Assembly: GCA_947627385.1 (NCBI GenBank) | Contig: CANQVV010000004.1 | Location: 1-37,134, forward strand | Direction of reading: 5' to 3' | DNA length: 37,134 nucleotides | Source: an uncultured Bacilli bacterium | Lineage (GTDB): Bacteria; Bacillota_I; Bacilli_A; RF39; UBA660 | Shown here: piece by piece, positions 52-35,869 of the stretch | Layout: each line of letters begins with the position of its first letter | Position numbering within the stretch: the stretch's first letter is position 1 | Translations under genes and position numbers: made by a program | The notes under the pieces: generated by a model | What the model saw: the letters and a program-made list of their open reading frames with translations, nothing else | Told to the model about the DNA's origin: nothing | Databases searched by the model: none

Positions 52-870
52 CTACATTTTTATATTAGCACTATCAATTGCGCCTTCTTTAAGACCAATT
101 TTAAATCCTTTTTCTTTTCCTTCTTTTATTCCTTCTTCTAATCCTTCTTTTCTATATTCTTTTTTTAATGATCGCATTATTTTCTCTTGGTCTTCTTCAT
201 AACTTAAATGATTTATTACTACTCCATCTTTGGTTAATGTTAACATCTTCTCTTCATACTCCTTTACTACTTCATCTTTTTTACTTAACTTTTTTATTTC
301 TTCTATATTTGAATTTAACATTACTATATGTATATGTTCTTTATTCCCTTTGATACACTCATCATAACAAAGTTCTTTATATTTAGCAAGATTCACATCT
401 ATTATTTTAAAACTATTTGTATATCTTTTCCCTCTTTCTTTGCCAATTATATAATAGGTTTCTTTCATCGGTAAGCTTTTATTCATTTGATAGTTTAAAT
501 TTATTAATACTGTTTCCATCTCTTCTTCATATTCTCTTCCTCTTTCTACTATCTGAGAATAGTATGAACAATAATATGACAAGTTCCTTATCTTAATACT
601 TTTAGAATAATTACTATTTACTTCAACTAATATTTCTTTTCCTTTACTACTTGTTACTATCAAATCTGTTACTTTGACTCTTTCTTTTTTATTCCTTACC
701 TTTAAATTGGTATTCACAAATTCCTTTATATGGACTTCTTCTTCTAATATATCTTTTAAGACATATTCTAAGATTTTAGGATCTTTATGATTTCCTATTA
801 TAGTTTTAAATATGCGATCATACATTAGAATAGATTTTTCTTCTTGAAGCGTGATATTACCTCCTTTCAC
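52..870 (-). CDS. Rpn family / PD-(D/E)XK nuclease family transposase-like protein
   Basis: N-terminal YDRIFKTIIGN, then TDLIV..GKEILVEVN core, and C-terminal EGLEEGIKEGKEKGFKIGLKEG repeats typical of this family. The annotated start MKGG overlaps the apparent RBS, so the real start is uncertain. Confidence 0.75.
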   Translation of the reverse strand: MKGGNITLQEEKSILMYDRIFKTIIGNHKDPKILEYVLKDILEEEVHIKEFVNTNLKVRNKKERVKVTDLIVTSSKGKEILVEVNSNYSKSIKIRNLSYYCSYYSQIVERGREYEEEMETVLINLNYQMNKSLPMKETYYIIGKERGKRYTNSFKIIDVNLAKYKELCYDECIKGNKEHIHIVMLNSNIEEIKKLSKKDEVVKEYEEKMLTLTKDGVVINHLSYEEDQEKIMRSLKKEYRKEGLEEGIKEGKEKGFKIGLKEGAIDSANIKM

Positions 871-923
871 TTTATATTTACGCTTTTTTATCTCTATTTC
901 CTTTTTTTTAGAAAAATTTTTGC

Positions 924-6513: not shown

Positions 6514-7935
6514 GTGATTACCATAAATAAGATTGTTCAAAGAATTCAAAAGGAATTTCAAGATGTAGCAGATTTAAAAATTAAACAAATGCAAGTAAGT
6601 ACTTTTAAAAGTGTTTATGTAATTTATATTGAAACTATTTGTTCAAGTGATAAAATTAATGATTATATTTTAAAAGGCTTAACCAATTACCATAAAAATC
6701 ATAATTTAAATACTAATCTACCTGGTTCAAATACAGTTTTTATTAATAATTATGATGAAATTGAATTTTATTTAACTAATGGCTTTGCCATTATTATTAG
6801 TCATAAAGAAGTTATTGCTATTGAAGTTAAAGGAGATTTATCAAGAAGTATCTCTAATTCTATTCGTGAGCCATCACTATTTGGTCCCGAAGATTCATTT
6901 AATGAAAATTATCAAACTAATTTAGGACTTATAAAAAGAAGAATTAAAAGTAATACTTTTAAAACCAAAGAAGTTATTTTAGGAAGAAAAACAAAAACAA
7001 ATATTAGTATTAATTATTTAGATGATATTGCTGATTTAGATATGGTTAATAAAATAATTGCTAAACTGCAAAATATTGATGTTGATGGTGTTATTGATGT
7101 AGGTACTATTATTAATTATTTAGAAAGTGAAAATAAAACTGTATTTCCGACAATTAAAAGAACTGAAAGACCAGATTATGTTGTAACATCACTTTTAGAA
7201 GGTAAAATTGCCATTCTAACTGATACTTCACCTTTTGCCCTTATTTTACCAACATTTTTAGTAGATTTTATTAATCCCGTAAGTGATAATTATGAAAAAA
7301 GTATCAATGTGGGATTTATTAAAATATTAAGAGAATTATGTTTTATTTTTTCTATAATTGTTCCTGGGTTTTTTGTTGCTATCATGAATTATAATCAAGA
7401 AACAATACCATCTAGTTTACTGATTAATTTTAGTACCCAATCATCAGGAGTACCATTTCCCTCTATTATTGAAATTATTATGCTTTTAATAATTTGTGAT
7501 ATTTTAAGAGAAAGTGATTTAAGATTTCCATCCAATTTTGGTTCGGCAATTTCTATTTTAGGAGCCTTAATTATTGGTGAAGCTGCGGTTAATGCTGGAT
7601 TAGTATCACCTATTGCTATTATAATTGCTTCCTTCACTTTTATTACTAGTCTAATATTTAATGATTTAGAAATAAATAATGCTCTTCGTTTTTATCGTTA
7701 TTTATTCTTATTTTTAGCTTCTTTTTTTGGACTTTATGGCATATTTTTAGCCTTAATGATTTTCTTAATTAATGTTATTTCTATCCATTCTATTAATTCA
7801 CCATATTTTGCTCCCCTAGCCCCATATAATAAAGAATACTTTTATAAAACAATTTTAAAAAAGCAAGATTTAAAAAATACTAAAAGAAGTGATTTAACAA
7901 CCAAGAAAAATTTTAAGAAAGGAAGATTTAATTGA
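6514..7935 (+). CDS. Spore germination protein, GerA family (A subunit)
   Basis: GRKTKTNISINYLDDIAD, LLEGKIAILTDTSPFALILPTFLVDFINPVSDNY, DILRESDLRFPSNFGSAISILGALIIGEAAVNAGLVSP; probable GTG start. Confidence 0.95.
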   Translation: MITINKIVQRIQKEFQDVADLKIKQMQVSTFKSVYVIYIETICSSDKINDYILKGLTNYHKNHNLNTNLPGSNTVFINNYDEIEFYLTNGFAIIISHKEVIAIEVKGDLSRSISNSIREPSLFGPEDSFNENYQTNLGLIKRRIKSNTFKTKEVILGRKTKTNISINYLDDIADLDMVNKIIAKLQNIDVDGVIDVGTIINYLESENKTVFPTIKRTERPDYVVTSLLEGKIAILTDTSPFALILPTFLVDFINPVSDNYEKSINVGFIKILRELCFIFSIIVPGFFVAIMNYNQETIPSSLLINFSTQSSGVPFPSIIEIIMLLIICDILRESDLRFPSNFGSAISILGALIIGEAAVNAGLVSPIAIIIASFTFITSLIFNDLEINNALRFYRYLFLFLASFFGLYGIFLALMIFLINVISIHSINSPYFAPLAPYNKEYFYKTILKKQDLKNTKRSDLTTKKNFKKGRFN

Positions 7936-9002
7936 AAAAAATATTTATTTTATTAGTTATTATTTTCCTTTTAGGTGGATGTTATGATAATGTTGAATTA
8001 AATAATTTAGCTATTATCTCTGGTATTGGTATTGATTATAAAAATGATGAATTTTATTTAACTTATGAAATCCTTAATGATATTAAAACTGAAAATAATA
8101 TGACTATGAAAAGTTTTACTGAAAGTGGAAGTGGTAAAACAATCAGTGAGGCCTTCACTAATGTTAATTATAAAATTGGTAAAAAACCTTATTTTGCCCA
8201 TTTAAAAATAGCTTTATTTAGTGAAAATATTGTTAAAGATAAATTAGATCAAATAAGTGATTATCTTTTAAGAGATACTGATATTCGAGATGAATTTATA
8301 GCTATTATTACCAAAGACATTTCCCCAGAAGAAATATTAAAACACAATAGTGATAATAATCCCGTAGTTAGTGATTTAATAATTAAACTTATTGATAATG
8401 AACAATACAATAATAATTTAGCTGTAAATGAAACATTTCAAAAAATTGTTGCTAAACTTGCTGGTAATCAATATGATATTGTTTTAAATTCAGTAACTAT
8501 AAATAATGATGAAATTACTTTGGATACTTTTGGTATTTTTAATCATTATCAATTTAAAAATTATTTAAGTAAACAAAATTCCAGTTTATATAATTTATTA
8601 ACTAAAAATGTTTTTAACTTAAAATTTAATAAAGAATATAATAATAAAGTTGTTACCATTAATATAACGGGCTCTAAAACTGATATAAGTGTTAGTCAAG
8701 ATAAAATAAATATTACAACTAAATTAGAAGCTAAAATAATTGAAAACAATGCTAATTTAAATTTAAAAGAAGAAAAAACTTATCAAAAATTAAATGCTGA
8801 TTTTGATAAAGTAATAGCTAATGAAATTAATGATTTTATTAAAACATTACAAAAGAATGCAAGTGATATTTTAGGATTTTCAGATATTTACTATAAAAAG
8901 ATGCGAAAAGAAAATCATAATTTATGGCAAAATGCCGAAATAAATGTAGATGTCGATTTAAAAATAAATACCAAAGGCTTTATTTTTGAGGTGATGAAAT
9001 GA
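7932..9002 (+). CDS. Ger(x)C family spore germination lipoprotein (C subunit)
   Basis: Lipobox-like LLGGCYDNVELNNLAIISGIGIDY; overlaps flanking ger genes by 4 nt. Confidence 0.93.
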   Translation: MKKIFILLVIIFLLGGCYDNVELNNLAIISGIGIDYKNDEFYLTYEILNDIKTENNMTMKSFTESGSGKTISEAFTNVNYKIGKKPYFAHLKIALFSENIVKDKLDQISDYLLRDTDIRDEFIAIITKDISPEEILKHNSDNNPVVSDLIIKLIDNEQYNNNLAVNETFQKIVAKLAGNQYDIVLNSVTINNDEITLDTFGIFNHYQFKNYLSKQNSSLYNLLTKNVFNLKFNKEYNNKVVTINITGSKTDISVSQDKINITTKLEAKIIENNANLNLKEEKTYQKLNADFDKVIANEINDFIKTLQKNASDILGFSDIYYKKMRKENHNLWQNAEINVDVDLKINTKGFIFEVMK

Positions 9003-10018
9003 AAAATAAACTAACATATTTTATTTCCCGTTCAGCTATGTTTGGCATTGGCTTTTTCTTAATTTTTAAAAATAGTGGTAAAGATGCTTGGATTGCTATT
9101 TTAATGGGAACACTACTAGGAATAATTGTATTATATATTTATAAATATTTAAAAGATTACTTACAAAATCAAAATATTAAAGACATTTTAAGTAAAACTT
9201 TTATTGGTAAAATATATTTATTTATCTTTTTGTTATTTTATATGTTTTTAATAGGTATAATTTTAATTTTATTACCTATGTTCGTTAAATCATTTTATTT
9301 ACTTTATACCCCTAAAATTCTTATTGTTATACCATTTATTTTAATTGCTATGTATATATCTTTTAAAGATAAAAAAGTATTAGAAACTTTAAGTAATTTT
9401 CTTTTTGTTTTATGTGTAGCTAGTATTATTTTATATAGTCTTTTATTATTTAAATATATCGATATTAATAATCTATATCCTGTATTTTCAACTAAACCAA
9501 TAAGTATAATAAAATCTTCTTTAATTTATGCCTCAATTACAAGTATTCCACAAATAATAACTATTAACTATCATGGTAATACTTTTAAAGATGAATTAAA
9601 AGAATATCTATTTTCTTCTTTTATCAATTTATTAATTGTATTATTAATTATTCTTACCCTAGGTGAGCCATTACTTAAAATTTATAGTTTTCCTGAATAT
9701 GCAGTATTTAAACAAATTAAAATTTTAAATTTTATTGAAAATATAGAAAATATTTCGACTTTTATCTGGTATTTCGATATGTTTGTTACACTAGCTACTT
9801 TAACATCTAATATCAAAAGTATATTACCATATAAATATAATAAAATTTATTATTATGGAGCTATTCTAATAACTATTTATTTAGCAATTTATATTATTTC
9901 TAATAATTATCGTTTTATTATTACTGCTTTTTATTATTATCCATTAATATTATTTATTTTCTTTATTATTTTTCTGACTCTTATCATTTATTTAAAAATA
10001 TCTAAAAAAAAGATTTAA
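8999..10018 (+). CDS. Endospore germination permease, GerB/spore permease family (B subunit)
   Basis: Polytopic membrane protein, 4-nt overlap with gerC-like gene; conserved A-C-B operon. Confidence 0.88.
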   Translation: MKNKLTYFISRSAMFGIGFFLIFKNSGKDAWIAILMGTLLGIIVLYIYKYLKDYLQNQNIKDILSKTFIGKIYLFIFLLFYMFLIGIILILLPMFVKSFYLLYTPKILIVIPFILIAMYISFKDKKVLETLSNFLFVLCVASIILYSLLLFKYIDINNLYPVFSTKPISIIKSSLIYASITSIPQIITINYHGNTFKDELKEYLFSSFINLLIVLLIILTLGEPLLKIYSFPEYAVFKQIKILNFIENIENISTFIWYFDMFVTLATLTSNIKSILPYKYNKIYYYGAILITIYLAIYIISNNYRFIITAFYYYPLILFIFFIIFLTLIIYLKISKKKI

Positions 10019-13425: not shown

Positions 13426-13581
13426 TTATTGACAATAATTTTTAGTTACTATCCGTTTAATAGAACTACCAAGAGAACGACCATAATTAAAAATTGCATC
13501 CATTAATTTAGTAATTGCTTCGATTATAGCTCCACTGGCTGCTCCACCTTTAACACATAATAACTCTTCATCACTTAACAT
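13426..13581 (-). CDS. Double-glycine-leader bacteriocin-like precursor peptide B (51 aa)
   Basis: Own translation: MLSDEELLCVKGG|AASGAIIEAITKLMDAIFNYGRSLGSSIKRIVTKNYCQ*. GG leader, GxxxG (GRSLG), clustered with C39 ABC transporter. Not in the supplied ORF track. Confidence 0.85.
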   Translation of the reverse strand: MLSDEELLCVKGGAASGAIIEAITKLMDAIFNYGRSLGSSIKRIVTKNYCQ

Positions 13582-13592
13582 AAATACTACAC

Positions 13593-13748
13593 CTACTTTC
13601 TACATGCATTAGGATTTAAATAGCCATCAATTAATCCTACTATAAAAACACCTATACCTGATATTATACCAGTGATGAGGGAGGCCAACCCAAAACTGAC
13701 AGCCCCTCCTTTTACTTCTAACATTTCAGCATCATTTAACTTATTCAT
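13593..13748 (-). CDS. Double-glycine-leader bacteriocin-like precursor peptide A (51 aa)
   Basis: Own translation: MNKLNDAEMLEVKGG|AVSFGLASLITGIISGIGVFIVGLIDGYLNPNACRK*. GG leader, GxxxG (GIISG), preceded by GGAGG RBS. Not in the supplied ORF track. Confidence 0.88.
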   Translation of the reverse strand: MNKLNDAEMLEVKGGAVSFGLASLITGIISGIGVFIVGLIDGYLNPNACRK

Positions 13749-13761
13749 TTATATTACCTCC

Positions 13762-14178
13762 TTACTTAAATAATTCATAAATAAATGCTATAAATTTTTG
13801 TTTATGATAGTAAAACTCCACTAAACCAACTTCATTATCATAAACATTGCCATCGATAGTTAAATAAATTTTTTGCCATATATTATTATCAATAATTTCA
13901 TATTCACCATAAGAATCTATTTGATAACCTACTTCTTTACCATTAAATGTCATATTATCACTATTCTTTAATTTATCAGAGAGTGTCCTTTCTACTTGAA
14001 TAGTTAATATACCATTTTGATAAATACCATAAGTACTATATTTATGACTGACTGTAACAAAACAAGAAATAATTAAAATTACTATAATACAGAACACAAT
14101 TATGAAAGGAAATGAAATAATAATTTTTGAAAAAGCTAAATTTTTTAATTTATCATAGTTAATTTTAAAGTATTTCAT
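13762..14178 (-). CDS. Bacteriocin export accessory-like membrane protein (reduced HlyD-like?)
   Basis: Single N-terminal TM, extracellular C-terminus, overlaps transporter gene, immediately upstream of the peptides. Confidence 0.55.
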   Translation of the reverse strand: MKYFKINYDKLKNLAFSKIIISFPFIIVFCIIVILIISCFVTVSHKYSTYGIYQNGILTIQVERTLSDKLKNSDNMTFNGKEVGYQIDSYGEYEIIDNNIWQKIYLTIDGNVYDNEVGLVEFYYHKQKFIAFIYELFK

Positions 14179-16219
14179 TAGTAACTCCTATATTAATTAT
14201 TTTATCAAAAACTCTATTTTGATTTTTATGAGAAATATAGATAATAGTTTTTTCTTGAAAATATTTACGAATATTTTTAATTATTTTACTTTCTAATCCT
14301 TTATCTACTTCACTTAGAGCTTCATCTAATATAATAATATTAGCATTATTTAAAAGACCTCTTGCTAAAATAATTCTTTGCATCTCACCTCCGGAAATAT
14401 TTTTAGAATTAGCTTCAATTAAAGAATCAAAACGCATATTTTTATTTTTAACAATACTTTCTATTTCACATATTTTTACTATATCTTGAAAATTTTGATC
14501 ATCTACTTTTCGACCTATTAAAATATTATCTTTTATAGTTCCAGTAAATAATTGTTCACTTTGAGATATATATAATATATTACTTCTAATAGTTTTAATA
14601 CTTAAATCTTTTATATTGTGATTATCAATAATTATATCTCCTTTAAAGTTATCATTTTCTAAACATAATAATTTACAAATAGTACTTTTCCCAACACCTG
14701 ATGGACCATTTAATAAAATATGTTCTCCCTCCTTTATTTCCATATTAAAATTATTTAATATATTATGGTAATTGTTGTAAGAATAAGATACATTGTTAAA
14801 GATAATATTGCCTTTTAAATTTAGACAAATATCAGAATTATTTTCCTCATCAATATTAATAAATTCACTTATTTTGTTAAAAGAGGCTTTAATAAAGTTA
14901 TATTTAGGAAGTAAATTAATAATATTTTTAATATTATCTATACAATAAGCTAATATAATATTAAAAGTAAATAAATCTATTATTGATAAATTATTATTTA
15001 AAATATTATAAAAGCCATAGGAATTTATTAAAAATAAAGATAATTCTAAAATAAAATCTTTCCCTAAGTTAGTAATATTAAAGAATTTAATAAATTCATA
15101 ATTATTATATAAATATTTTGCTAAATAATTTTCAAACTTATTTAAAATATTCTCTTTAATATTTAAGTGTTTTATACTATCAATCATAGTAATATTTTCC
15201 ACAGTTAAAGTATTAAAATCAGTTTGATAATTAATATTTTCTAAAACTTTTTTATATATAATTTTACTAATAAATATCCCATATATAATGTAAATAAGAA
15301 TACTAATTAATAATATATAAAATAATTTATTATTAATTATATACAAAATAGCCATCGATACTAGCATCATAAGTGAGTCTAGAAAACAAGAAACAAAAAT
15401 ATCTGAAAATAAATTTTTAATATTTGCTAGTTCATTTATTCTTGTCACGATTTCCCCAGTACTTCTACTTTTAATGCTTTTTAAAGGAAGGGAAAATAAA
15501 TGTCTTAAAAATTCTGGATATAAATACACATCTACTAAATTACTTAAATGATTTTCAAAATATTCTCTTATAAATAAGAATAATATTTTAAGTAAAGTAA
15601 TTAGGCAAAAACCAATAATTAAATATTTTAATAGATAGTGATTAAAATTTAATAAATTACTACCTACTTTTAAATAATAACTACTGACAATTGCTAAGAT
15701 AGTCCAAATTATACTAGTAAAAATTATTTTTATAATTAGAAACTTTTCCTTACTCAATATTTTTAAAAATAATTTTCCAATAGTTATACCTTTGTCTAGT
15801 TTAATAACTTTATCTCTCGGATATGCTAAAATAATATGACCAGTAAATAATTTATTAAACTTAGTTAAAGTCATTTTAGTATTACCGATACCTGGATCCA
15901 TTAAATATACTATATCGTTACTTATTTCTTTAACTACGACAAAGTGTTCTAAACCATTATCTAGTTCTAAATGGGCAATTAATGGAAATTTTAATTCTAT
16001 TTTGTTTAAGTCATACTCCAAAACCCCGATTGAATCAAATCCCCATTTTTGAAAAGCCTTAACAATTTGATAGGCATTGGTACCATTACTATCAGTGCAA
16101 GTATCTTCTCTCAGTTTTTCAAGTGATACATAGCCACCATAGTAAATAAATATCCATTGCATACAACTAACACCACAATCTTTTAAATCATGTTGCTTAA
16201 CTGCTTTAATTTTTTTCAA
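14165..16219 (-). CDS. Peptidase C39-containing bacteriocin processing/export ABC transporter
   Basis: N-terminal KQHDLKDCGVSCMQWIFIYYGGYVSLEKLR (C39 Cys), GLEHFVVV.. His region, 6-TM region, Walker A LNGPSGVGKST, ISGGEMQRIILARGLL signature. Confidence 0.96.
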   Translation of the reverse strand: MKKIKAVKQHDLKDCGVSCMQWIFIYYGGYVSLEKLREDTCTDSNGTNAYQIVKAFQKWGFDSIGVLEYDLNKIELKFPLIAHLELDNGLEHFVVVKEISNDIVYLMDPGIGNTKMTLTKFNKLFTGHIILAYPRDKVIKLDKGITIGKLFLKILSKEKFLIIKIIFTSIIWTILAIVSSYYLKVGSNLLNFNHYLLKYLIIGFCLITLLKILFLFIREYFENHLSNLVDVYLYPEFLRHLFSLPLKSIKSRSTGEIVTRINELANIKNLFSDIFVSCFLDSLMMLVSMAILYIINNKLFYILLISILIYIIYGIFISKIIYKKVLENINYQTDFNTLTVENITMIDSIKHLNIKENILNKFENYLAKYLYNNYEFIKFFNITNLGKDFILELSLFLINSYGFYNILNNNLSIIDLFTFNIILAYCIDNIKNIINLLPKYNFIKASFNKISEFINIDEENNSDICLNLKGNIIFNNVSYSYNNYHNILNNFNMEIKEGEHILLNGPSGVGKSTICKLLCLENDNFKGDIIIDNHNIKDLSIKTIRSNILYISQSEQLFTGTIKDNILIGRKVDDQNFQDIVKICEIESIVKNKNMRFDSLIEANSKNISGGEMQRIILARGLLNNANIIILDEALSEVDKGLESKIIKNIRKYFQEKTIIYISHKNQNRVFDKIINIGVTNEIL

Positions 16220-16352
16220 CCAAATTTTCCTCCCTTCACTTTATATTTACGCTTTTTTATCTTCATTTCCTTTTTTTTATGAAAAATTTTTTAAAAAATT
16301 GCATTTTTTTTAAATACCATCATAATATTTACTAGCAATAGGAGCGATTATA

Positions 16353-16847
16353 ATGATTAATAAACAAAATTTATGGTTTGTAACTTTATTTTCTTTAATA
16401 TTAATTTTAGGAATCTATTATATTAGTATTGATGATGAAGTAGCTAGTGTCTTAAAAAAAGAAGAAGAAAGTACCAATAACGCCGTTATTGAAATAACCG
16501 AAAATGATGCCTTAGTAGCCTTAGAAGTAGAAAATGATGAAGAAAAACAATCTTTAATGGCTGAATATCAAGAAGTGTTATTAGATACTGAAAGTACATT
16601 AGCTGAAAAAAATAATGCTTATGAAAGTTTACAAAAATTAAACAACTCCAAAGCATTAGAAAATAAAATAAAAGATATGATAAAAACTAAATTTAATTTA
16701 GATGCATTTGCCAAAATCAAAGATAAAACAATTAGTATTGTGGTAGCTAGTAAAGAACATAATACGGAAAAAGCTAATAAAATAATTCGCAGTGTTCAAG
16801 AATTATTTGATGATGAAATGTACATTACAGTAAAATTTAATGCTTAA
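16353..16847 (+). CDS. SpoIIIAH-like protein
   Basis: N-terminal MINKQNLWFVTLFSLILILGIYYI, acidic coiled region and C-terminal ring-building-like domain. Confidence 0.8.
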   Translation: MINKQNLWFVTLFSLILILGIYYISIDDEVASVLKKEEESTNNAVIEITENDALVALEVENDEEKQSLMAEYQEVLLDTESTLAEKNNAYESLQKLNNSKALENKIKDMIKTKFNLDAFAKIKDKTISIVVASKEHNTEKANKIIRSVQELFDDEMYITVKFNA

Positions 16848-20841: not shown

Positions 20842-22629
20842 TTAAAAACCACCACCAGATCCAAATGAATCTAATTCTTCTTGGGTAACTACAACATTGA
20901 TACGCATTCTTCTATTACCACAAACAAATAAACCTTGACCTTGTGGATAATATTTAATACTTTCCTTTTCACTTTCATTTAAATCAATTAATTGGGCTAA
21001 ATCATCAACGGCTTGTTTTCTTAAACTCATTATTAAATAATAAGAGGCATTATCAAATATTGCTTTGCCATGTTGAATAATGGTTGGTGATGCAAAATCC
21101 GTAGGTTGTTGCGTAACAATAATAGTACCAGTATTGTATTTACGACTACGTCTTTGAATTTGCGCTAAGAACTCTGCTCCAAGTTCATTATGACTAGCTA
21201 GTAAAACGTGAGCTTCTTCAACATACATTATCGTATTAACATCTTTCTCTAAACAAAGACCCCAAGCATATTTTAAAATATTAAAGAATAAAGCATTTTT
21301 AATATTTTCATCACTATTCATAAGTTCTTTAATATTAAAGACAATAAAATCACTATTAATTTGAATGGTTGTGTGACCAGTAAAATAATATCTTAATTCT
21401 TTTACTAATGGTCTTACTTTTAACTCTAATCTTTCCATAACATCACGTTCATGGGTAGCATCAACCATTGATAAAAGTCTTCCTTTTATTGTTGCGTAAA
21501 CATCATCAAATGTTGGATAGTCTTCTCTTTTAAGTTTAGTATAATCAGTATCAAAATCTATTCTAAATCTTTTATATGTATCTTGAACTACTTCACTAAA
21601 TAATGTTAAAACATCTTCTTCAATTTCTGGATTGTAATATTTCATAAAGGCTTTTAATTGTTGGAGTGTTCTTGTTAATACAGTATAACCTAAACCTTGT
21701 GATATTTCTTCTTCATCAACATCAACAACAATTTCAAGAGGGTTAATCATTCCGAATTCTCCACCTTTTCCAAGGTCTAAGAAATCACCACCCATTAAGT
21801 TAACCATATCTTCAAGTTCACCTTCAGGATCAATAGCTACTATTTTACAACCATTTCTTAAATGAGTTCGAAGTAAAAGTTTGGCTGCGGTTGATTTACC
21901 ACTACCTGATGTACCAAGTAAAATCATATTGGCATTATTTCGATTATTTTCATTTTTAATTTGATATAAGAATTGATTGAATAAAACAACTCCACCAGAG
22001 AAATCAACACCGAATAGACAAGATAAACCTGGGTCTTTAATACTATCAAAAACAAATGGATACATTGCCGCAATTGTAATTGATGGTATTGGTGTACCAA
22101 TTCTTTGTTCAATATCTTGTGGTGGAAAAATTGGAACAATACTTTTAAGTACTTTTTCTTGTTCAAACATTAGAGCTACACCAGCCATATTCATAGCATT
22201 TAGGTAACTTTTAACTTCCATCTTTTTATTATCAAGTTCTTCTTTACTATCAGCAGTTATCATTAAATGCATTTGAAAATCAAATATTCTAGCATCAGTT
22301 GAAGCCAACATAGTAATAAATTGCTCTAATGATTCATAATCTTGACGAATTCTTTCTTGTAATGTTTGATCGTGCTCTGATTGGTATCTAGTTTTTAAAT
22401 CTGCTATTTCTTTATTAATCATTTTTTGTAAAACAGAAAATTGAATTGGAATATGTTTTACAACTACTTTAACCCCAGATATATTAGTAATATCTGATAA
22501 ATAACCAACATAAATATTTTTTGGATAAGATACAATCGTAATAATTGTTGAATATTTGCCACTTATTCTAAATTCAGTAGGTTTAAATTCCATTCCCTTT
22601 GGAGCGATAGCATTTTTTGTTGCACTCAT
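20842..22629 (-). CDS. VirB4/TraE-type T4SS ATPase
   Basis: MILLGTSGSGKSTAAKLLLR, VAIDPEGELEDMVNLMGGDFLDLG, YVEEAHVLL, QIQRRSRKYNTGTIIVTQQPTDF. Confidence 0.93.
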   Translation of the reverse strand: MSATKNAIAPKGMEFKPTEFRISGKYSTIITIVSYPKNIYVGYLSDITNISGVKVVVKHIPIQFSVLQKMINKEIADLKTRYQSEHDQTLQERIRQDYESLEQFITMLASTDARIFDFQMHLMITADSKEELDNKKMEVKSYLNAMNMAGVALMFEQEKVLKSIVPIFPPQDIEQRIGTPIPSITIAAMYPFVFDSIKDPGLSCLFGVDFSGGVVLFNQFLYQIKNENNRNNANMILLGTSGSGKSTAAKLLLRTHLRNGCKIVAIDPEGELEDMVNLMGGDFLDLGKGGEFGMINPLEIVVDVDEEEISQGLGYTVLTRTLQQLKAFMKYYNPEIEEDVLTLFSEVVQDTYKRFRIDFDTDYTKLKREDYPTFDDVYATIKGRLLSMVDATHERDVMERLELKVRPLVKELRYYFTGHTTIQINSDFIVFNIKELMNSDENIKNALFFNILKYAWGLCLEKDVNTIMYVEEAHVLLASHNELGAEFLAQIQRRSRKYNTGTIIVTQQPTDFASPTIIQHGKAIFDNASYYLIMSLRKQAVDDLAQLIDLNESEKESIKYYPQGQGLFVCGNRRMRINVVVTQEELDSFGSGGGF

Positions 22630-23201
22630 TAATTCATCACCGTCCCAAAATTAATAGTTTCTCCTCCATTAAGGAGATTATCTAGTATTATTCTTAAATC
22701 AGCATTACTGGTTTGAGTTGATTGAAGTCCACAAGATGATAAATTACTAATCATATTATGTAATTTCTTTTGCAATACTTCCAATTTTTTTTCTTGGAAA
22801 ATTAAATAGTATTCTGTATCAACTACATTATATTCTACACTCATAAATTGATTAGCTTTATTAATATCTTGTAAAATCAATTTTCTTGTTTCATTACTTG
22901 GAGTATTATTATATAATTTTTGTAATTCAGCAAGATATAAATTAATATCTACTGGACGATCAGCAATAATTAGCCAGAATTCATAATCAATTGTATTATA
23001 AAAATTTCTTAAATTATAAATAATTTTTTCTTGATCTTGTTGACTCATAATGAATATATTACGAGGATGTACCTTTATACCGGTAACATAATAACCATTA
23101 TCAAGTTGAATCATACCATTCATTATTTGTCTAATAGGTAACCAAGAACTTGTAAATTTAAAATTATCTGACGTCGTTTGAGCCGAACTCTTCATTAGCA
23201 C
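22629..23201 (-). CDS. VirB4 N-terminal partner protein (TrsD/TraC-like)
   Basis: FTSSWLPIRQIMNGMIQLDNGYYVTGIKVHPRNIF; TAATG overlap with the VirB4 gene and position between PrgI and VirB4. Confidence 0.72.
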   Translation of the reverse strand: MLMKSSAQTTSDNFKFTSSWLPIRQIMNGMIQLDNGYYVTGIKVHPRNIFIMSQQDQEKIIYNLRNFYNTIDYEFWLIIADRPVDINLYLAELQKLYNNTPSNETRKLILQDINKANQFMSVEYNVVDTEYYLIFQEKKLEVLQKKLHNMISNLSSCGLQSTQTSNADLRIILDNLLNGGETINFGTVMN

Positions 23202-23487
23202 ACCAACCTTTCCAATAATACCTTCTTCTATTTGTATAAAAATTAAATATATTTGTCAGAAGCTGCAATACATTATGATAATGGGGCACCGGCATTACTA
23301 AAAATGCTCCAATAAGTGCTGGCAACACTATAAGTATTAACACTACGATATTATAACTTCGTATTATAAGCACCATAGCAAGTGTCCATAAACATCCTAC
23401 TGAAAAGATTACTAAATCAGTCGGTGTAAAAAATCCCAGTATCAATTGTGATTTTTTTGTATTTGCAGGTATTAAATAATTATTCAC
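23164..23487 (-). CDS. PrgI/TcpE-like T4SS membrane protein
   Basis: YLIPANTKKSQLILGFFTPTDLVIF, two TM helices; immediately upstream of the VirB4 pair. Confidence 0.78.
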   Translation of the reverse strand: MNNYLIPANTKKSQLILGFFTPTDLVIFSVGCLWTLAMVLIIRSYNIVVLILIVLPALIGAFLVMPVPHYHNVLQLLTNIFNFYTNRRRYYWKGWCANEEFGSNDVR

Positions 23488-23509
23488 CTTTCTATTCCTC
23501 CTTTAAATA

Positions 23510-25618
23510 TTATTTTTTATCATCTGATGGCATTTCATGTTTTCCAAGCGGTTCATCACTTCGTACAGGAGGAATCGGTGTCTCAGCCTCATGTCTACCA
23601 TGAGGTTCATCATCTAAATCCCGCATTTCATGTCTACCGCGTGGTTCTCCGCCAGAACTAGGATAAACTGGTGGCTGTGCTTCATGCTTTCCTCTTGTTG
23701 CTGTATAATGTTTTCCTAATTCATCATCACTTGAATCACTAGATATAGGCTCTGTTTTAAGTCCTTCTCCTCTATCTTCCATATATTTCATTGCTTTGTA
23801 ACCTTTAATTTCACTTTTTGAAGCTAAAATTGTCAATCTTTGCTTCCATTCATTATCAAGTGCTTCATAAGAATCTTTATATTTATTCATAACTGCTTGA
23901 GCTTCCTGAATTTTGGCACTATCACCAGTTTTTACAGCAGCTTCATATTCAGCCTGTGCACGGAACATATTTTTTTTAGCAGTACTTCTTTCTTCATATG
24001 TTTTACCCAAATCTTTATACTTACTGCCATATTCAGAAGCAGCGGCCATATATTTAATTAATTCTCCTGATCCTACCCCCATAATTGCTGTTTTTATTTG
24101 CTCTTCTTTTGCCTCTTTAATTGATATTTCATTACCATTTTCATCTTTAATAGTTAAAACTTTACCTAGTAAATCCCTATCATCTCTTTCTAATGCTCCA
24201 TTAAGTTTTCTTATTAAATCACTTCTAGCATTATCACTAGTTGTTCTTCTTTTGGCTATTTCATGCATTTGCTCTGATGATTTTTTATTATCTTCTATAT
24301 TAGCAGCAGTATATGGCAACAATTCATTTTTCCATTTTTTAAACTTTGCATATGGACCCTTACCTTCAATACGTCTCCAACCATCTTTTAAATCTCTACC
24401 ATTTCGTTTAGCATCAACAGCAGAAATAGCCTTTTTGCCAAGGGTACCAGTAGCTGCTATTCCAGCACCAAGAAGTGGAACACCTGCTATTGCCGAAGTA
24501 ACTTCACTGAATTTGTCTTTTATACCAAGCTTCATATTACCAGAATCTATACCTGTAATTTCTGATAATAATTTTGGTGATCTCTTCATAAACATTATAA
24601 TTGCCATTAATATAAAAGCTTTTGTAAATAATCCAGTCCACCAACCATAATGATAAACAGTTTGAGTCATAAAGTTAGTATCCATTAAAGCTGTACACAA
24701 CCAGACACTAAAATAAAAGATAAATATTCGGATAAATACTTCACCCCAACAAGTCAAAGTTATTTTTAACCATTGAGTAAAAGTACCACTTAATTTACTA
24801 TTAGGAACAATTCTCAAAAATACAGGAATTGGTGCAATTAATTGATAAAAAACTAATTTTATTAAACGAAGCGCCATATCAAAACAATATGAAACACCAA
24901 TATATACTAAGGCAGCACCTGCAATCAACTCAATTAAAAAATTAAAATCAATTTCATCATCTACTATATTTTTAGCAAAATCATCATAAACTAAAAAATG
25001 AGCATTTCTATTAACATCATCTATATATGTATCAAATGTGTTTTTTTTACCATCTTCTGCTTTCACAGTTGCTTGGCATTCTTCTAAATCCATATTTTTA
25101 CAATTCTCAGTAAGATATTGTTCATTAACATTAAAGAATGCTGTGTATATCCCATTAACAATTTCATTTGCACTTCTCTCAACTGATTCAATATTGTCAT
25201 CACTTACTGTAACTTCTTCCCCAGCAACACCAATATCAAAAAATCCACCAATAACGTTATATCTTAAAATAGAATTTTGAGCATCAAATAAAAATGTAAA
25301 AATAGTTGGCAAAAAGCCTAATATTATACAAGATATAACAAAATTGATAATTAATTTTTTCACAGCAGCCGTACCTTGTTTTTGATCATCGGGATTAATT
25401 AATCCCATAAGAAGTGAAAATGCCATAATAAATAACATTACTACCCCTAAAATTAAATAGAAATTATTTATTAAATTAGTATAATTAACACTAGTTAAAA
25501 CATCACTTTGGGCTAAAATCATAAATATTTTAAATGCAAAAGCAGCTAGTTTAAAGATAGGTGTAACTAGCCATATTCCCGCTGACACTAGTAAATCAGT
25601 TATTGATAAAATTAACAT
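23510..25618 (-). CDS. VirB6/TrbL-like polytopic T4SS protein with G[KR]HE-repeat tail
   Basis: N-terminal multi-TM half, central charged region, C-terminal repeated GKHE/GRHE motifs. Confidence 0.75.
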   Translation of the reverse strand: MLILSITDLLVSAGIWLVTPIFKLAAFAFKIFMILAQSDVLTSVNYTNLINNFYLILGVVMLFIMAFSLLMGLINPDDQKQGTAAVKKLIINFVISCIILGFLPTIFTFLFDAQNSILRYNVIGGFFDIGVAGEEVTVSDDNIESVERSANEIVNGIYTAFFNVNEQYLTENCKNMDLEECQATVKAEDGKKNTFDTYIDDVNRNAHFLVYDDFAKNIVDDEIDFNFLIELIAGAALVYIGVSYCFDMALRLIKLVFYQLIAPIPVFLRIVPNSKLSGTFTQWLKITLTCWGEVFIRIFIFYFSVWLCTALMDTNFMTQTVYHYGWWTGLFTKAFILMAIIMFMKRSPKLLSEITGIDSGNMKLGIKDKFSEVTSAIAGVPLLGAGIAATGTLGKKAISAVDAKRNGRDLKDGWRRIEGKGPYAKFKKWKNELLPYTAANIEDNKKSSEQMHEIAKRRTTSDNARSDLIRKLNGALERDDRDLLGKVLTIKDENGNEISIKEAKEEQIKTAIMGVGSGELIKYMAAASEYGSKYKDLGKTYEERSTAKKNMFRAQAEYEAAVKTGDSAKIQEAQAVMNKYKDSYEALDNEWKQRLTILASKSEIKGYKAMKYMEDRGEGLKTEPISSDSSDDELGKHYTATRGKHEAQPPVYPSSGGEPRGRHEMRDLDDEPHGRHEAETPIPPVRSDEPLGKHEMPSDDKK

Positions 25619-25635
25619 ATTTTATTCACCTTCCT

Positions 25636-26379
25636 TTACTCTATTCCACACAGACTAGTATTTCTTTCAACTAAGTATTTTAAGAAAAGTTCAATTAAAT
25701 ATGGAAGTAAAAAAATTATAACACATATAATAAACCGCATTATTAGTTTATTAGTCACTTTTTTTATTACATCAGCATCATGTGAGGCAATTGCCCCCGT
25801 GAAATCCATAACTGATAAAACTACCAATAACACTAAGGCAACATATTTTATAACATGAAAAACCTTAACTAAATAATATGCAGGAGAACCTGGATCATCT
25901 GGATAACCTAATAATTCACCATTACAATCAGTTTTTTCACTTACATCACTATCAAGATTTGATTCACTATTTGTTTCTGATTCCGTTATAGTAAGATCTT
26001 TATAATCCGAAAGATTAAATATATGAGTACTTCCCTCAGTAAAAGAAATAATTCCATTAAGTGTACCTCTTAAATTAGAAGAACATTTTGTACTACTAGA
26101 ATAATAATAATTAAATAGTTCATTAAGCGTAATTTTATAACCCGTAAAAACTATTGAACCGTTACCATCCTTTAAAGGTATTTCACAAGTAGAACTTGGT
26201 CCCATTTTATCATTACCACAATAAACACTAAAATCATTATCATTGAATCTAATTTTAATATTTTTAGCTCCTTCTTGAAATTCATTTTTAAAAGTATATT
26301 CACACTCATACTCGACAGCATTAACTATTTTAATTGGTAATAATAGTACCAAAAATATAAATATTATTATTTTTTTCAT
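25636..26379 (-). CDS. Secreted N-domain fused to VirB2/TrbC-like two-TM C-terminus
   Basis: Signal peptide; C-terminal VLLVVLSVMDFTGAIASHDADVIKKVTNKLIMRFIICVIIFLLPYLIELF is paralogous to the next two ORFs. Confidence 0.68.
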   Translation of the reverse strand: MKKIIIFIFLVLLLPIKIVNAVEYECEYTFKNEFQEGAKNIKIRFNDNDFSVYCGNDKMGPSSTCEIPLKDGNGSIVFTGYKITLNELFNYYYSSSTKCSSNLRGTLNGIISFTEGSTHIFNLSDYKDLTITESETNSESNLDSDVSEKTDCNGELLGYPDDPGSPAYYLVKVFHVIKYVALVLLVVLSVMDFTGAIASHDADVIKKVTNKLIMRFIICVIIFLLPYLIELFLKYLVERNTSLCGIE

Positions 26380-26447
26380 AAATTATCACTCCAAATAGCT
26401 TACGATATATTATTATTTTAACATACCATAACAATAAAATCTACTTT

Positions 26448-26957
26448 TTAATTATTTTTTTGACAATTAGTAAGGGGATTTTTTAAACATTCTGTACAGG
26501 AAATAAATTCAGCATCATTTTCAATATCTTTGGCTTCATCTATAAAATCAATAAGCACAAAAATTAAACCTGGTATAAAAGGAATTATAATAGCTATAAT
26601 CATTCTTTTAATAAATGAAGAAGTAGCTTTACTTAAAGCTTTTTCATCATCAGATATCATTGCTTTACCATAATCTATCATTCCTAGAACAATAAGAATA
26701 AGGGGACCTACCCATTTACCAAACAAGATTATTATTCCTGCTATTTTAGCAGTAACCCGAAATCCCTCTTCATTACATAAATGTTCATAGTCAATTACAT
26801 GTTTTTCTGAATCATCAGCAATAGTTATACTAGAACCAAAATTTCTATTTTGTGAAATATATACATATTCTTTATTACTTTTTACTAAATTAATAGTCAT
26901 TAAGCTAATTAGAATAATAAATAACATCCCACTTAAAAATGCTATTTTATGCTTCAT
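26448..26957 (-). CDS. VirB2/TrbC-like pilin paralog
   Basis: GPLILIVLGMIDYGKAMISDDEKALSKATSSFIKRMIIAIIIPFIPG. Confidence 0.7.
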   Translation of the reverse strand: MKHKIAFLSGMLFIILISLMTINLVKSNKEYVYISQNRNFGSSITIADDSEKHVIDYEHLCNEEGFRVTAKIAGIIILFGKWVGPLILIVLGMIDYGKAMISDDEKALSKATSSFIKRMIIAIIIPFIPGLIFVLIDFIDEAKDIENDAEFISCTECLKNPLTNCQKNN

Positions 26958-27018
26958 TTATTATCACCCAAGAAAATTATAACATAATAATTAAAAATAT
27001 TAAATAATAATTTTAGAC

Positions 27019-27052
27019 AACAAAAAAGAAATGTGACCATTTCTTTTTTGTT
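27019..27052. terminator. Long perfect stem-loop 3' of the VirB2-like gene (intra-operon terminator/processing element)
   Basis: 15-bp perfect stem (27019-27033 / 27038-27052), 4-nt loop TGAC/GTCA. Confidence 0.75.
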
Positions 27053-27056
27053 AATA

Positions 27057-27413
27057 TTAATTACCTAATACATTTGCTTTGGCATTTTCAGCATCGGCTT
27101 CACAAGTTTGAGTTAAACATCTTACACATACTTGATAATCGGCTTCATCATTTGCTACTACACCTATAATACCGAAAATTGCATTAACAATTGTAGGAAT
27201 AAAGAACACTACAACAGCAGCAATAAATCTTTTTAATAATGAACCAACAGCTTTATTAATAGCTTTTTCATCACTTGAAATAACTGCTTTTCCTAAATCA
27301 ACCATTCCCAAAATAATTAATAAAAGTGGAATAACAATTTTAATAATTGTAACTACCATTCCTAGTAAATGCCAAATATTTGCTGTATCAGCACAAAAAC
27401 CTCCAATTAACAT
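27057..27413 (-). CDS. VirB2/TrbC-like small pilin subunit
   Basis: IVIPLLLIILGMVDLGKAVISSDEKAINKAVGSLLKRFIAAVVVFFIPTIV; two TM helices; CVRC C-terminus. Confidence 0.75.
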   Translation of the reverse strand: MLIGGFCADTANIWHLLGMVVTIIKIVIPLLLIILGMVDLGKAVISSDEKAINKAVGSLLKRFIAAVVVFFIPTIVNAIFGIIGVVANDEADYQVCVRCLTQTCEADAENAKANVLGN

Positions 27414-27441
27414 AAAATACCTTCTTTCTCTTTATATCTAA

Positions 27442-27470
27442 ATTTTATCTAATTAAAAGTTAGATGTCAA
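27442..27470 (-). promoter_or_regulatory. Consensus sigma-A promoter for the VirB2/T4SS segment
   Basis: Minus strand TTGACA - 17 bp (TCTAACTTTTAATTAGA) - TAAAAT, then RBS and ATG at 27413. Confidence 0.82.
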
Positions 27471-27568
27471 GAAATATAACTAAATTTTAAAATGATTATT
27501 TAAAAATTTGACATAAATTTAAAAAAATTTAAAAAATTAGCAAAAATTTGACATATTAAAAGTTGCCA

Positions 27569-27590
27569 TAAATAATAGGCAACTTGATTT
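27569..27590 (-). terminator. Terminator after CpaE-like gene
   Basis: GTTGCC/GGCAAC hairpin followed on minus by TTTT. Confidence 0.6.
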
Positions 27591-27596
27591 ATTTTA

Positions 27597-28577
27597 TTAC
27601 AAATGCCATCTTTTTTCAGATTCAATACTTAATCTTGAAAAACCTAAGGCAATTAAAAATTCTATTATCTTTTTATTATTATCCAATTTCTCATCTAAAC
27701 ATGGAATATTAAAGAATACTTTACTACCACTTTCTTTTTCAAAATCATGGACATCTTTATCATTTAAAACACTTCTATTTAAAACTATCTTTTGATTTTT
27801 TAATTTATCAAATATTTTATAATCACTTCTAATTAATTTATTTAATTTTAATATACCTGGTTCAATCAAATAAATTATTTCATTGCAAATACTATCAGGT
27901 CCATCATTTAAATCAACAAGTATTACATCAGCTTCACTATTATTTGCAATCTTAATTGAGGCATTCATAAAATCTGCACTTTCAAGACCTTTATCATTGA
28001 AATATTCAAAATCAGTAGAATTAATTTCTAAGGCTTTAACTTTATATTCATCTTGTAAATGTTTTTTTAACATATAAATTAAGGTTGTTGCTCCGGCATG
28101 CTCAGTTAAATTTTTAAAACCAATAATTCGTTGTTCCATTTTGGTATAAACAGGCTCATTTTTTTTAGCAGTATTAACTTTATTAGGTTCATAATTATTA
28201 AAATTTTGATAAGCTGCTACATCTTTATAGGAATTAGGGTTTTCAATTAAAAACGGAATAGCATCAACATTTTTAGTAAAATTATAAATCCCTACTGATA
28301 CTAATTGTGATAAATAATTAGCAGAATTTACTACTGGTGAGTCATCTAATAATAAAATTACTTTATCCATTTCAAAATTTAAAGATAACTCCCGCATAAT
28401 ATTAACATTTTCATAATTTTTAATGGCAGTAACATCAATAATCATTTTATTATAATAAAAATTACTAAACTGATTTACTAATTCTTCTACCGAAAATTCA
28501 CCATTTATTATTTTAATAACATCAATATTTAATGTTCCAAGCAAAGCTTGATATTTATTTGATACAATTACATTCAT
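27597..28577 (-). CDS. CpaE/MinD-like protein with degenerate P-loop
   Basis: Receiver-like N-terminus and MinD-like C-terminus (RIIGFKNLTEHAGATTLIYMLKKHL, ADVILVDLNDGPD, QKIVLNRS). Confidence 0.6.
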   Translation of the reverse strand: MNVIVSNKYQALLGTLNIDVIKIINGEFSVEELVNQFSNFYYNKMIIDVTAIKNYENVNIMRELSLNFEMDKVILLLDDSPVVNSANYLSQLVSVGIYNFTKNVDAIPFLIENPNSYKDVAAYQNFNNYEPNKVNTAKKNEPVYTKMEQRIIGFKNLTEHAGATTLIYMLKKHLQDEYKVKALEINSTDFEYFNDKGLESADFMNASIKIANNSEADVILVDLNDGPDSICNEIIYLIEPGILKLNKLIRSDYKIFDKLKNQKIVLNRSVLNDKDVHDFEKESGSKVFFNIPCLDEKLDNNKKIIEFLIALGFSRLSIESEKRWHL

Positions 28578-28589
28578 GATATCCTCCTA

Positions 28590-29048
28590 CTAACTTGTTA
28601 ACTGATTTGATGATGAATATATTTTTATTCCTTTAGTTTCTCCTGTAATATTAAAATATAATAACTCACCTATAAAAGGTAAATTAAAACGAGAAAATAG
28701 TTTTATTTTATAAAAAACTTGATTATTTTTTATATATGGATCAATACAATAAAAATAATTTTTATTATTAACTGTGGTCTCATATTTATCACCATTTAAA
28801 TCAGCTATACCATATTTATAACCAGCACAATTTTGTTTAGCAATATAACCACTATTGCTTAAATAATTATTCACAATTTTTAATGATTTACTCGATACTC
28901 CTTCATATTTTTCTAAAATTGCTAATGTTTCATTTTTTAATTTATAAGCTTTATTATAAGTTATTGCCACAGCAATAAAACCGGCAAATAAAAATGTAAA
29001 AATAAGTATAGCTTTGAAAATTGTTTGTGTCCCAATTGCTTCTCTCAT
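28590..29048 (-). CDS. TadE/F-like pseudopilin with MREA start
   Basis: MREAIGTQTIFKAILIFTFLFAGFIAVAITYNKA single TM; C-terminal FNLPFIGELLYFNITGETKGI similar to the next ORF. Confidence 0.6.
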   Translation of the reverse strand: MREAIGTQTIFKAILIFTFLFAGFIAVAITYNKAYKLKNETLAILEKYEGVSSKSLKIVNNYLSNSGYIAKQNCAGYKYGIADLNGDKYETTVNNKNYFYCIDPYIKNNQVFYKIKLFSRFNLPFIGELLYFNITGETKGIKIYSSSNQLTS

Positions 29049-29055
29049 AATTCAC

Positions 29056-29592
29056 CTACCCAAAAATAACTTTTGTTGAACCAGTTAATTTAAAATTTAA
29101 AAAATTATTTAAAAATGGTACATCAAATTGAAAGAATAATACTACATCATAGTATACTGCTGGTGGAAAGTCTTCTTCGGTAACAATACATTTATTACCT
29201 TCACATTTCTTTTTAGCTTCATCGGCATACAAACTAGCCACTTTATTAGCTCTTATACAAAAAGCAGCATGCTCATTATCTACTTTACCATCTCTGGTAT
29301 AACCAACCCAGTTATCTTTAGTACTATCATCATTTTTAGGACAAGAACCAGTAATACGATAACCGACTTCATCAAAATGAGTTTTAATAGCATCCAAAGT
29401 ATTAGTTGATAAACCATAAGTTCCATTATGAGCATTAACATCTATTTTAGAATTTTCTAAGATGGTAATTATTTCATCTTTAACCCCAAAGGCTTTGGAA
29501 TGATTAATAGTTAAGCACATTATTCCGGTAAAAACAAGAATGAAAAATATTACTATTTGAAATATGGAAATTCCACCTACTGCTTCCTTCAT
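29056..29592 (-). CDS. TadE/F-like pseudopilin with MKEA start
   Basis: MKEAVGGISIFQIVIFFILVFTGIMCLTINHSKAF; C-terminal FDVPFLNNFLNFKLTGSTKVIFG. Confidence 0.6.
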   Translation of the reverse strand: MKEAVGGISIFQIVIFFILVFTGIMCLTINHSKAFGVKDEIITILENSKIDVNAHNGTYGLSTNTLDAIKTHFDEVGYRITGSCPKNDDSTKDNWVGYTRDGKVDNEHAAFCIRANKVASLYADEAKKKCEGNKCIVTEEDFPPAVYYDVVLFFQFDVPFLNNFLNFKLTGSTKVIFG

Positions 29593-29604
29593 TTAATCAA
29601 CTCC

Positions 29605-29847
29605 TTAACCTTTATATACGCATTCAAATCCATTTCCAGGTGTATGCTCAGCATTTTTAGGATAGCAAGTCACCGTATCACAATCATGTGTTGGACACTT
29701 TTCACAAATAGCATCACTACATTTAGCGTTTTCAGCAAAATTATTCTTAATCATTGGCCACAGTGTATAGTAAAAAAAGGCTATGAAAACTCCAATAGCC
29801 AACATTACTACAACTGTTGCATTTAATTCACCTGTTGCTTCTTTCAT
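29605..29847 (-). CDS. Small Cys-rich pilin-like protein
   Basis: MKEATGELNATVVVMLAIGVFIAFFYYTLWPMIKNN plus Cys-rich ectodomain. Confidence 0.7.
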   Translation of the reverse strand: MKEATGELNATVVVMLAIGVFIAFFYYTLWPMIKNNFAENAKCSDAICEKCPTHDCDTVTCYPKNAEHTPGNGFECVYKG

Positions 29848-29849
29848 GA

Positions 29850-30137
29850 TTAATGATTTGTTTGTCCAGTAGAAGTACTAGATTCACAAGATCTAGTTGA
29901 ATTATCATAAGAACATTTACCAATACCAGCACTACTTGTTGGACCACATTCAACAGCTTTATTATCTACAGTTTGCTTATAATAAGTTTGTCCTCCATTT
30001 GATGCATTGCATGCTGATGATAAAGTCATACCTCTTTGTAATACAGGCCATATAACTAAATAAAAGAATGCTACCAATGCTGCAATAGCAACAACTGTTA
30101 CAACCGTCATATTTAACTCACCTGTTGCTTCTTTCAT
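29850..30137 (-). CDS. Small pilin-like protein, paralog of preceding
   Basis: MKEATGELNMTVVTVVAIAALVAFFYLVIWPVLQRG. Confidence 0.7.
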   Translation of the reverse strand: MKEATGELNMTVVTVVAIAALVAFFYLVIWPVLQRGMTLSSACNASNGGQTYYKQTVDNKAVECGPTSSAGIGKCSYDNSTRSCESSTSTGQTNH

Positions 30138-30252
30138 ATTTTTTATTCCTCCTTTATTATCTATATACTAGTATAAACCAAATAAATTAAAATAACAATA
30201 TATTTTTTTTAAGTTTACAATATTTGTTAATTATATGTTATACTTTTATTAG

Positions 30253-31800: not shown

Positions 31801-31808
31801 TCACTTTT
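31789..31808. terminator. Bidirectional hairpin overlapping both convergent stop codons
   Basis: AAAAGTGA (31789-31796)/TCACTTTT (31801-31808), loop ATAA, flanked by A and T runs. Confidence 0.6.
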
Positions 31809-33500: not shown

Positions 33501-33512
33501 CTATGCACCTCC

Positions 33513-34625: not shown

Positions 34626-34659
34626 TTAACGCTCATCCTTCCCTTTTTATTTTTTTTAA

Positions 34660-35430: not shown

Positions 35431-35442
35431 TTTTTATTCCTC

Positions 35443-35850
35443 CTATTCTGCACCTTGCTCTAAAATGGCATCAATTCTATTAACCATATTCATACTCGTT
35501 GAATCATTAGCAATGAAATAAGTATTTGTGTCACTACTTATTTCTACTCCAACTTTTGGTGGTGCTTCATAAATACCAGCAAAAGTTATTGTATAAGATG
35601 TTGATAGTGATGCATTATCAGCAAATCTTCTTAAAAAACTTTCAATAAATTTTTCACGATTAATTTTAAGTTCTCCGTATTCTCTATAATAAGCATAATC
35701 AACAGCATCAAACATTGCTGCTTCACTTATTTGCTTAACGGTATAATTATCTTCGGTGTTATTTGAAGTAATATTTTGAATTAACAAAAGTATTACAACA
35801 ACTAAGACACCTAATAATATTAACCAGTAGCCCCAATACGATTCCTTCAT
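35443..35850 (-). CDS. Single-TM pseudopilin-like protein with MKES start
   Basis: MKESYWGYWLILLGVLVVVILLLIQN, ectodomain; N-terminus resembles the other MKEA proteins. Confidence 0.55.
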   Translation of the reverse strand: MKESYWGYWLILLGVLVVVILLLIQNITSNNTEDNYTVKQISEAAMFDAVDYAYYREYGELKINREKFIESFLRRFADNASLSTSYTITFAGIYEAPPKVGVEISSDTNTYFIANDSTSMNMVNRIDAILEQGAE

Positions 35851-35869
35851 TTTCTAAACCTTCTTTCTT

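Follow-up and report, generated by a model that had tools for sequence, protein, structure and literature searches.

The DNA analysed here (the window: 37,134 nucleotides, positions 1 to 37,134 of contig CANQVV010000004.1 in GenBank assembly GCA_947627385.1, from an uncultured Bacilli bacterium of the RF39 lineage) carries on its reverse strand an operon encoding an exporter, an accessory protein and two small precursor peptides, A and B. We propose, with a probability of roughly 0.6, that it specifies a competence-coupled, two-peptide, class IIb-like membrane-active system that is served by its own exporter and works in the manner of CibABC. The gene order exporter - accessory - A - B is repeated in more than 100 other loci, the accessory gene being absent in some, and this recurrence is far beyond chance.

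The operon and its two peptides

The two 51-aa double-glycine peptides that an earlier note had placed downstream of an accessory protein and a C39 exporter are there exactly as described, in coordinates as well as in translation. The accessory and exporter genes lie directly upstream of pepA and pepB on the same strand, and plausible ribosome-binding sites are found 5' of pepA (GGAGG) and of pepB (AGGTG).

14165-16219, reverse strand: exporter gene; C39 peptidase ABC exporter of the PCAT type, 684 aa
13762-14178, reverse strand: accessory protein gene, 138 aa
13593-13748, reverse strand: pepA, precursor peptide A, 51 aa; leader MNKLNDAEMLEVKGG at 13704-13748; mature peptide AVSFGLASLITGIISGIGVFIVGLIDGYLNPNACRK, 36 aa
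13426-13581, reverse strand: pepB, precursor peptide B, 51 aa; leader MLSDEELLCVKGG at 13543-13581; mature peptide AASGAIIEAITKLMDAIFNYGRSLGSSIKRIVTKNYCQ, 38 aa

The exporter contains the Pfam domains Peptidase_C39 (9.9e-31), ABC_membrane and ABC_tran, and 20 relatives all retain its catalytic residues Cys15 and His92. It matches TIGR01193 at 2.6e-109 with 366.7 bits, under the cut-off of 523.85, and NF045998 (the Mbov_0121 family) with 321 bits, under the cut-off of 500. Judged by this architecture, it would be expected to cleave the GG leaders and secrete both peptides. The accessory protein was modelled with AF2 (pLDDT 88.6, pTM 0.69) as an N-terminal transmembrane helix followed by a small beta domain, with no coiled-coil hairpin, and a fold search with this model returned no PDB match at E<=0.001. 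Weak, low-TM likenesses to beta-barrel parts of membrane-fusion proteins were seen among many others, and the protein is therefore left unassigned. A gap big enough for the accessory gene is present in 104 of 132 loci. Roughly one locus in five thus lacks the gene or has it elsewhere; export can accordingly proceed without it, and it cannot serve as the immunity factor in every case.

Mature A forms a hydrophobic helix (Kyte-Doolittle maximum averaging 2.3) with the C-terminal pattern G-x-x-D-G...P-x-K-C, whereas mature B is a cationic amphipathic helix (mean maximum moment 0.66) with the pattern G-R-x-x-G...I-R-R...C; the AF2 model of pepB is a single helix of modest confidence. Of 122 distinct pairs, 117 have GxxxG in mature A and 120 have it in mature B, where composition predicts 49% and 25%, and the GxxxG columns are strictly conserved in the alignments of both. 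The earlier count of one GxxxG per peptide needs correcting for the window pepA, which has two (GIISG and GLIDG, the latter alone conserved), while the motif itself is indeed kept in both families; the window pepB has GRSLG, and each peptide ends in the C-terminal Cys. Equal length, which had been taken as a hallmark, is incidental: the mature peptides measure 36 and 38 aa here, and mostly 29-36 versus 37-44 aa in the family.

The C-terminal Cys is distributed in an all-or-none manner, being present in both peptides of 115 distinct pairs, in neither peptide of 7 and never in only one of the two. On an informal reading, the seven Cys-free pairs perhaps reflect three independent events, namely a related group with a Cys in GxxCG, the first pair of locus L045, and locus L028. 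This joint behavior suggests that an intermolecular disulfide may join A and B into a tethered heterodimer. Three loci (L011, L043 and L045) carry tandem A-B pairs, the second of which has no C-terminal Cys and has GxxCG in its A peptide, and three others (L014, L044 and L136) encode an additional divergent GG peptide.

As for class membership, two adjacent short GG-leader precursors next to a C39-ABC exporter are a class IIb feature. The window pepA matches TIGR03949 (lactobin A/cerein 7B) at E 0.0014 with 18.3 bits against a cut-off of 21.5, as do 22 of 30 pepA relatives at E<=0.05, and NF038034 reaches 14.2 bits against 37. What survives of the class IIb-like label is thus the anatomy together with sub-threshold matches to class IIb models, no curated cut-off being reached; the statement that the pair works like class IIb rests on this anatomy, and antibacterial activity is predicted from sequence. 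PF10439, the model recommended in the earlier note, has no match in the window peptides and matches 16/30 A and 3/30 B relatives at E<=0.05. A PDB sequence search with pepA gave no match, and the PDB matches of pepB were discarded as being at chance level (E about 0.5).

Breadth, inheritance and a third gene

Of 291 genomes sampled from the host's family, 247 have an exporter match (E<=1e-60), nearly always one per genome. In the DNA surrounding 147 exporter loci, 128 have the A-B pair, 14 have one peptide and five have none, several of the incomplete loci being cut by contig ends. The pepB profile matches 270/288 sampled genomes of the family, in 97 of 102 genera, the named relatives being rabbit, ruminant and poultry gut MAGs that include Candidatus Pelethosoma and Candidatus Scybalousia. 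The order-level sample held same-family genomes only, and breadth was therefore judged on the class-level sample, where all full-length pepB-profile matches fall in the host's family and weak partial ones, mostly to the leader, occur in nine of about 300 genomes from other families. Leader-only matches to a 139-codon open frame were seen in four genomes (G408, G420, G495 and G565) of another family of the class, f4, which has small genomes.

The exporter tree and the rpoB tree of 62 genomes have 36 of 59 splits in common, where label shuffling predicts 0.29, and the corresponding distances correlate with a Mantel r of 0.62, a value reached in none of 999 permutations. The same neighbours recur beside the exporter (rpsU in 61 loci, yqeY in 49 and a spoIIIAH-like gene in 51), and the pN/pS of the mature peptides in close pairs is 0.02-0.32. 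Taken together, the congruence, the recurrent neighbours and the pN/pS values argue for a mostly vertically inherited locus under purifying selection. The locus had previously been treated as an isolated bacteriocin locus, a view that does not hold for an operon that is near-universal in its family, is vertically inherited and has an apparent sigma-H promoter. The papers on RF39-type bacteria that were searched leave bacteriocins unmentioned, and the larger of them do not mention competence.

In about 45 of about 142 loci (L018, L029, L062, L140, L171 and about 40 others), clustering of open reading frames around the exporters placed a further gene, which we call gene C, directly 3' of pepB. 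Its product, leaderless and about 50 aa long, has a transmembrane stretch in its N-terminal part and the segment G-x-x-x-G-T-x-I-R in its C-terminal part. Profile comparison matches gene C with the C-terminal half of pepB (29 aligned columns, E 1.2e-6, probability 90.8); the gene C profile gave no alignment with pepA and no match to known families. We propose gene C as a candidate immunity protein that would act through mimicry of B. Its presence is clade-structured (17 changes versus 39 when shuffled), and it was found neither in the window's genome, which is 71% complete, nor in genomes of the same genus, where the lone exception is a weak partial match over the pepB-like region. The earlier remark that no dedicated immunity protein is evident stands for the window's genome and gives way to a candidate in relatives.

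Elsewhere in the window, positions 20842-36541 (reverse strand) encode a TraG/VirB4-like ATPase, a T2SSE/TadA-like ATPase, T4SS pilins and DUF5411 proteins, that is, a hybrid pilus or secretion system, and pilin-like genes similar to these lie just upstream of the exporter in loci L030 and L032. A GerA-type germination operon occupies 6514-10018 (forward strand), and a spoIIIAH-like gene, the frequent divergent neighbour of the exporter operon in the 51 loci noted above, lies at 16353-16847 (forward strand). These spore genes agree with the published prediction that RF39 bacteria are able to sporulate (PMC10868615).

A promoter-like element and its apparent link to DNA uptake

A search for enriched k-mers upstream of the exporters detected a common element, AAAGGAAAT followed after about 13 nt by a G/C-N-T/A-A-T-A box; its separation from the start is constant at about 49 nt. 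AGGRWWW is found in this region in 91 of 131 loci against 26.5 expected. The features concerned in the window are as follows.

16244-16274, reverse strand: promoter-like element of the exporter operon, AAAAGGAAAT-N13-CGTAAATA, about 50 nt upstream of the TTG start
875-905, reverse strand: second promoter-like element, before the PDDEXK_2 gene, score 20.9
52-870, reverse strand: PD-(D/E)XK nuclease family transposase, Rpn-like (PF12784, 8.4e-13), a predicted regulon mate

With a matrix built on other loci, the two best sites of the window are at 16271 (exporter) and 902 (PDDEXK_2), both scoring 20.9, and a strict pattern has 10 copies in the window's genome, 6 in a congener and 0 control matches. 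Published SigH promoters have AGGA at -35 and GAAT at -10 with 17-18 nt between them (PMC12456013). The -35 box and spacing of the element agree with this type; loci L009, L039 and L054 have an exact GAAT where the window has CGTAAATA, and L009, with AGGA-N18-GAAT, is an exact match to the published motif. An earlier, stricter sigma-H pattern found nothing upstream of the exporter, and patterns for sigma-70 and for sigma E/F/G/K were set aside as not enriched there. From these likenesses we infer that the operon is under sigma-H control. The elements of the PDDEXK_2 gene (52-905) and the exporter operon are nearly the same, and several copies in the genome have the same spacer, while a congener (G212) has a different spacer shared by its own copies, as if each promoter had travelled with its gene inside the genome concerned.

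The comEA-comEC genes of the window's genome likewise have the element directly upstream, with a score of 20.6, and ComEA domains were confirmed for the comEA gene. Because only exporter promoters went into the matrix, comEA provides an independent test. Of 44 genomes, 24 carry a site scoring at least 15 in the 100 nt preceding comEA, where shuffles predict 0.65; of 609 other open reading frames, 18 (3%) have such a site, which makes the enrichment at comEA significant with p 9e-21. Among the 37 genomes scored at both genes, 19 have the element at both, 10 at only one and 8 at neither. A full-length SigH-like factor and ComEC are present in 10 of 10 genomes, the SigH candidates scoring well below the curated NCBIfam cut-off, and ComEC was found in 50 of 53 further genomes. 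In Lactobacillus sakei, the level of comEA transcripts rises over 300-fold when sigma-H is overexpressed (PMC3364868).

The element is likewise found in front of genes that have no connection with DNA uptake. Thioester-domain adhesins, PDDEXK_2 nucleases, dnaG, small HTH proteins and a RhuM-Fic protein are its other predicted targets, and the regulon is thus wider than competence. Its position before the primase gene dnaG (G000:C1:48937, L366, L368, L375 and L390) can be set beside the sigma-H promoter that Bacillus sigA operons carry, and together the two would add support to the sigma-H identification. A small conserved open reading frame of the IDEFTNNYSELLVE type, which has the strongest class of element, lies one operon upstream of comEA-comEC in L314 (reverse complement, about 1170-1430), L315 and L316.

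Proposed mechanism, alternatives and relation to known systems

In the model that we favour, a sigma-H-type RNA polymerase, apparently also transcribing comEA-comEC, would turn the operon on, whereupon the C39 domain would strip the GG leaders and the ABC exporter would secrete A and B. Contact between the two peptides would be made by the GxxxG faces conserved in each, and a disulfide joining the one C-terminal Cys of A to that of B would probably lock them together. The pair would then enter and permeabilise the membranes of neighbours in a different state, so that the freed DNA and nutrients could be taken up by the producer through ComEA-ComEC. Gene C, in the relatives that have it (about a third), would serve as a membrane-anchored mimic of B that shields the producer by capturing A. 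The disulfide, the killing through membranes, the role of gene C and the benefit for DNA uptake are the steps that we infer. We hold only tentatively, and with less than even odds, to the most specific form of the model, in which a core, vertically inherited competence effector of the host's family, a disulfide-tethered pair co-expressed with comEA-comEC, lyses neighbours to feed DNA uptake while the producer is protected, where such a gene is present, by a membrane-anchored mimic of its own peptide.

Several observations speak against the main model. Gene C was not found in the window's genome or in most operons, which leaves producer immunity unexplained there. Weapons are seldom near-universal or so strongly constrained. 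The element is at neither of the two genes in 8 of 37 genomes and at only one in 10. The SigH candidates score well under the curated cut-off, and the operon contains neither a histidine kinase nor a response regulator. Should the pair instead be a conventional class IIb bacteriocin, fixed in the clade for general competition, functionally unconnected with competence and driven by a promoter shared with a broad stationary-phase sigma-H regulon, its class IIb-like anatomy would be accounted for, as would the element before PDDEXK_2 nucleases, a thioester adhesin, dnaG and RhuM-Fic. We consider this unlikely, however, given the strong enrichment at comEA and an inheritance whose near-universal, vertical and constrained character fits a core programme better than a labile weapon.

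It is quite improbable, in our view, that the peptides help to build the producer's own envelope or its DNA-uptake apparatus, for instance as a disulfide-linked helical pair with C as an anchored third component. Near-universality, purifying selection, the frequent absence of an immunity gene, co-regulation with comEA-comEC and the frequent position beside a spoIIIAH-like gene would all suit such a role, whereas PCAT processing and export, class IIb-like leaders and class IIb family matches speak against it, and PCAT-type exporters typically release free peptides. Poorest of all are the prospects of autoinducing pheromones of the sigma-H/competence programme, for although C39-exported GG-leader peptides include competence pheromones (ComC/ComAB), a ComC model is weakly matched by 3/30 A relatives and the operon lies within the apparent competence regulon, the two peptides are conserved together and have membrane-type GxxxG helices as well as paired Cys, the operon contains no histidine kinase acting as receptor and no response regulator, and the motifs are kept across more than 90 genera when pheromones usually diversify.

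If the competence-coupled model is true, a very large, uncultured, genome-reduced gut lineage would have, as an old core programme, the link between peptide killing and DNA uptake that some streptococci are known to possess, and this would offer a concrete, testable explanation of the way in which these bacteria acquire DNA or nutrients. The all-or-none Cys pairing predicts a covalently linked two-peptide bacteriocin, and a peptide-mimic gene C would represent an unusual style of self-protection.

With respect to known systems, the exporter has the C39-ABC architecture and the catalytic Cys and His of PCAT exporters (TIGR01193, NF045998) and differs from them in scoring below both cut-offs and in being tied to a peptide pair throughout the family. 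With class IIb bacteriocins (TIGR03949; lactococcin G/enterocin 1071, NF038034/NF038035) the locus has in common GG leaders, short GxxxG helices, adjacent genes and a PCAT exporter; unlike in that class, the window peptides lie below curated cut-offs, both have the paired Cys, a classical immunity protein is lacking and the locus is core and vertical. Sigma-H (Spo0H/ComX-type) competence regulons, such as that of L. sakei, likewise comprise comEA-comEC, a sigma-H-like factor and AGGA/GAAT-type spacing (PMC3364868, PMC12456013), but here the regulon apparently also includes a two-peptide operon, PDDEXK_2 nucleases and thioester adhesins.

CibABC of Streptococcus pneumoniae would be the closest analogue in mode of action, a likeness of organisation and regulation rather than of compared sequences; Cib-named models did not appear in the family-model searches. 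CibABC, a two-peptide bacteriocin with an immunity factor, belongs to the late competence genes (PMC5295010); it is expressed with the DNA-uptake genes under the competence sigma factor and lyses non-competent kin (PMC5295010, PMC13059744). Both systems have two GG-leader peptides and a small third gene (here in relatives only), both are near-universal in their clades (PMC5295010, PMC13059744), and both depend, here apparently, on the type of sigma factor that drives the DNA-uptake genes, through a promoter common to late competence genes (here in 24/44 family genomes, with scores of 20.9 for the operon and 20.6 for comEA in the window's genome). Unlike CibABC, the present operon includes its own C39 exporter and accessory gene, both of its peptides have a conserved C-terminal Cys, its gene C is similar to pepB and lacking in the majority of operons, and it extends across a whole family of uncultured gut Bacilli.
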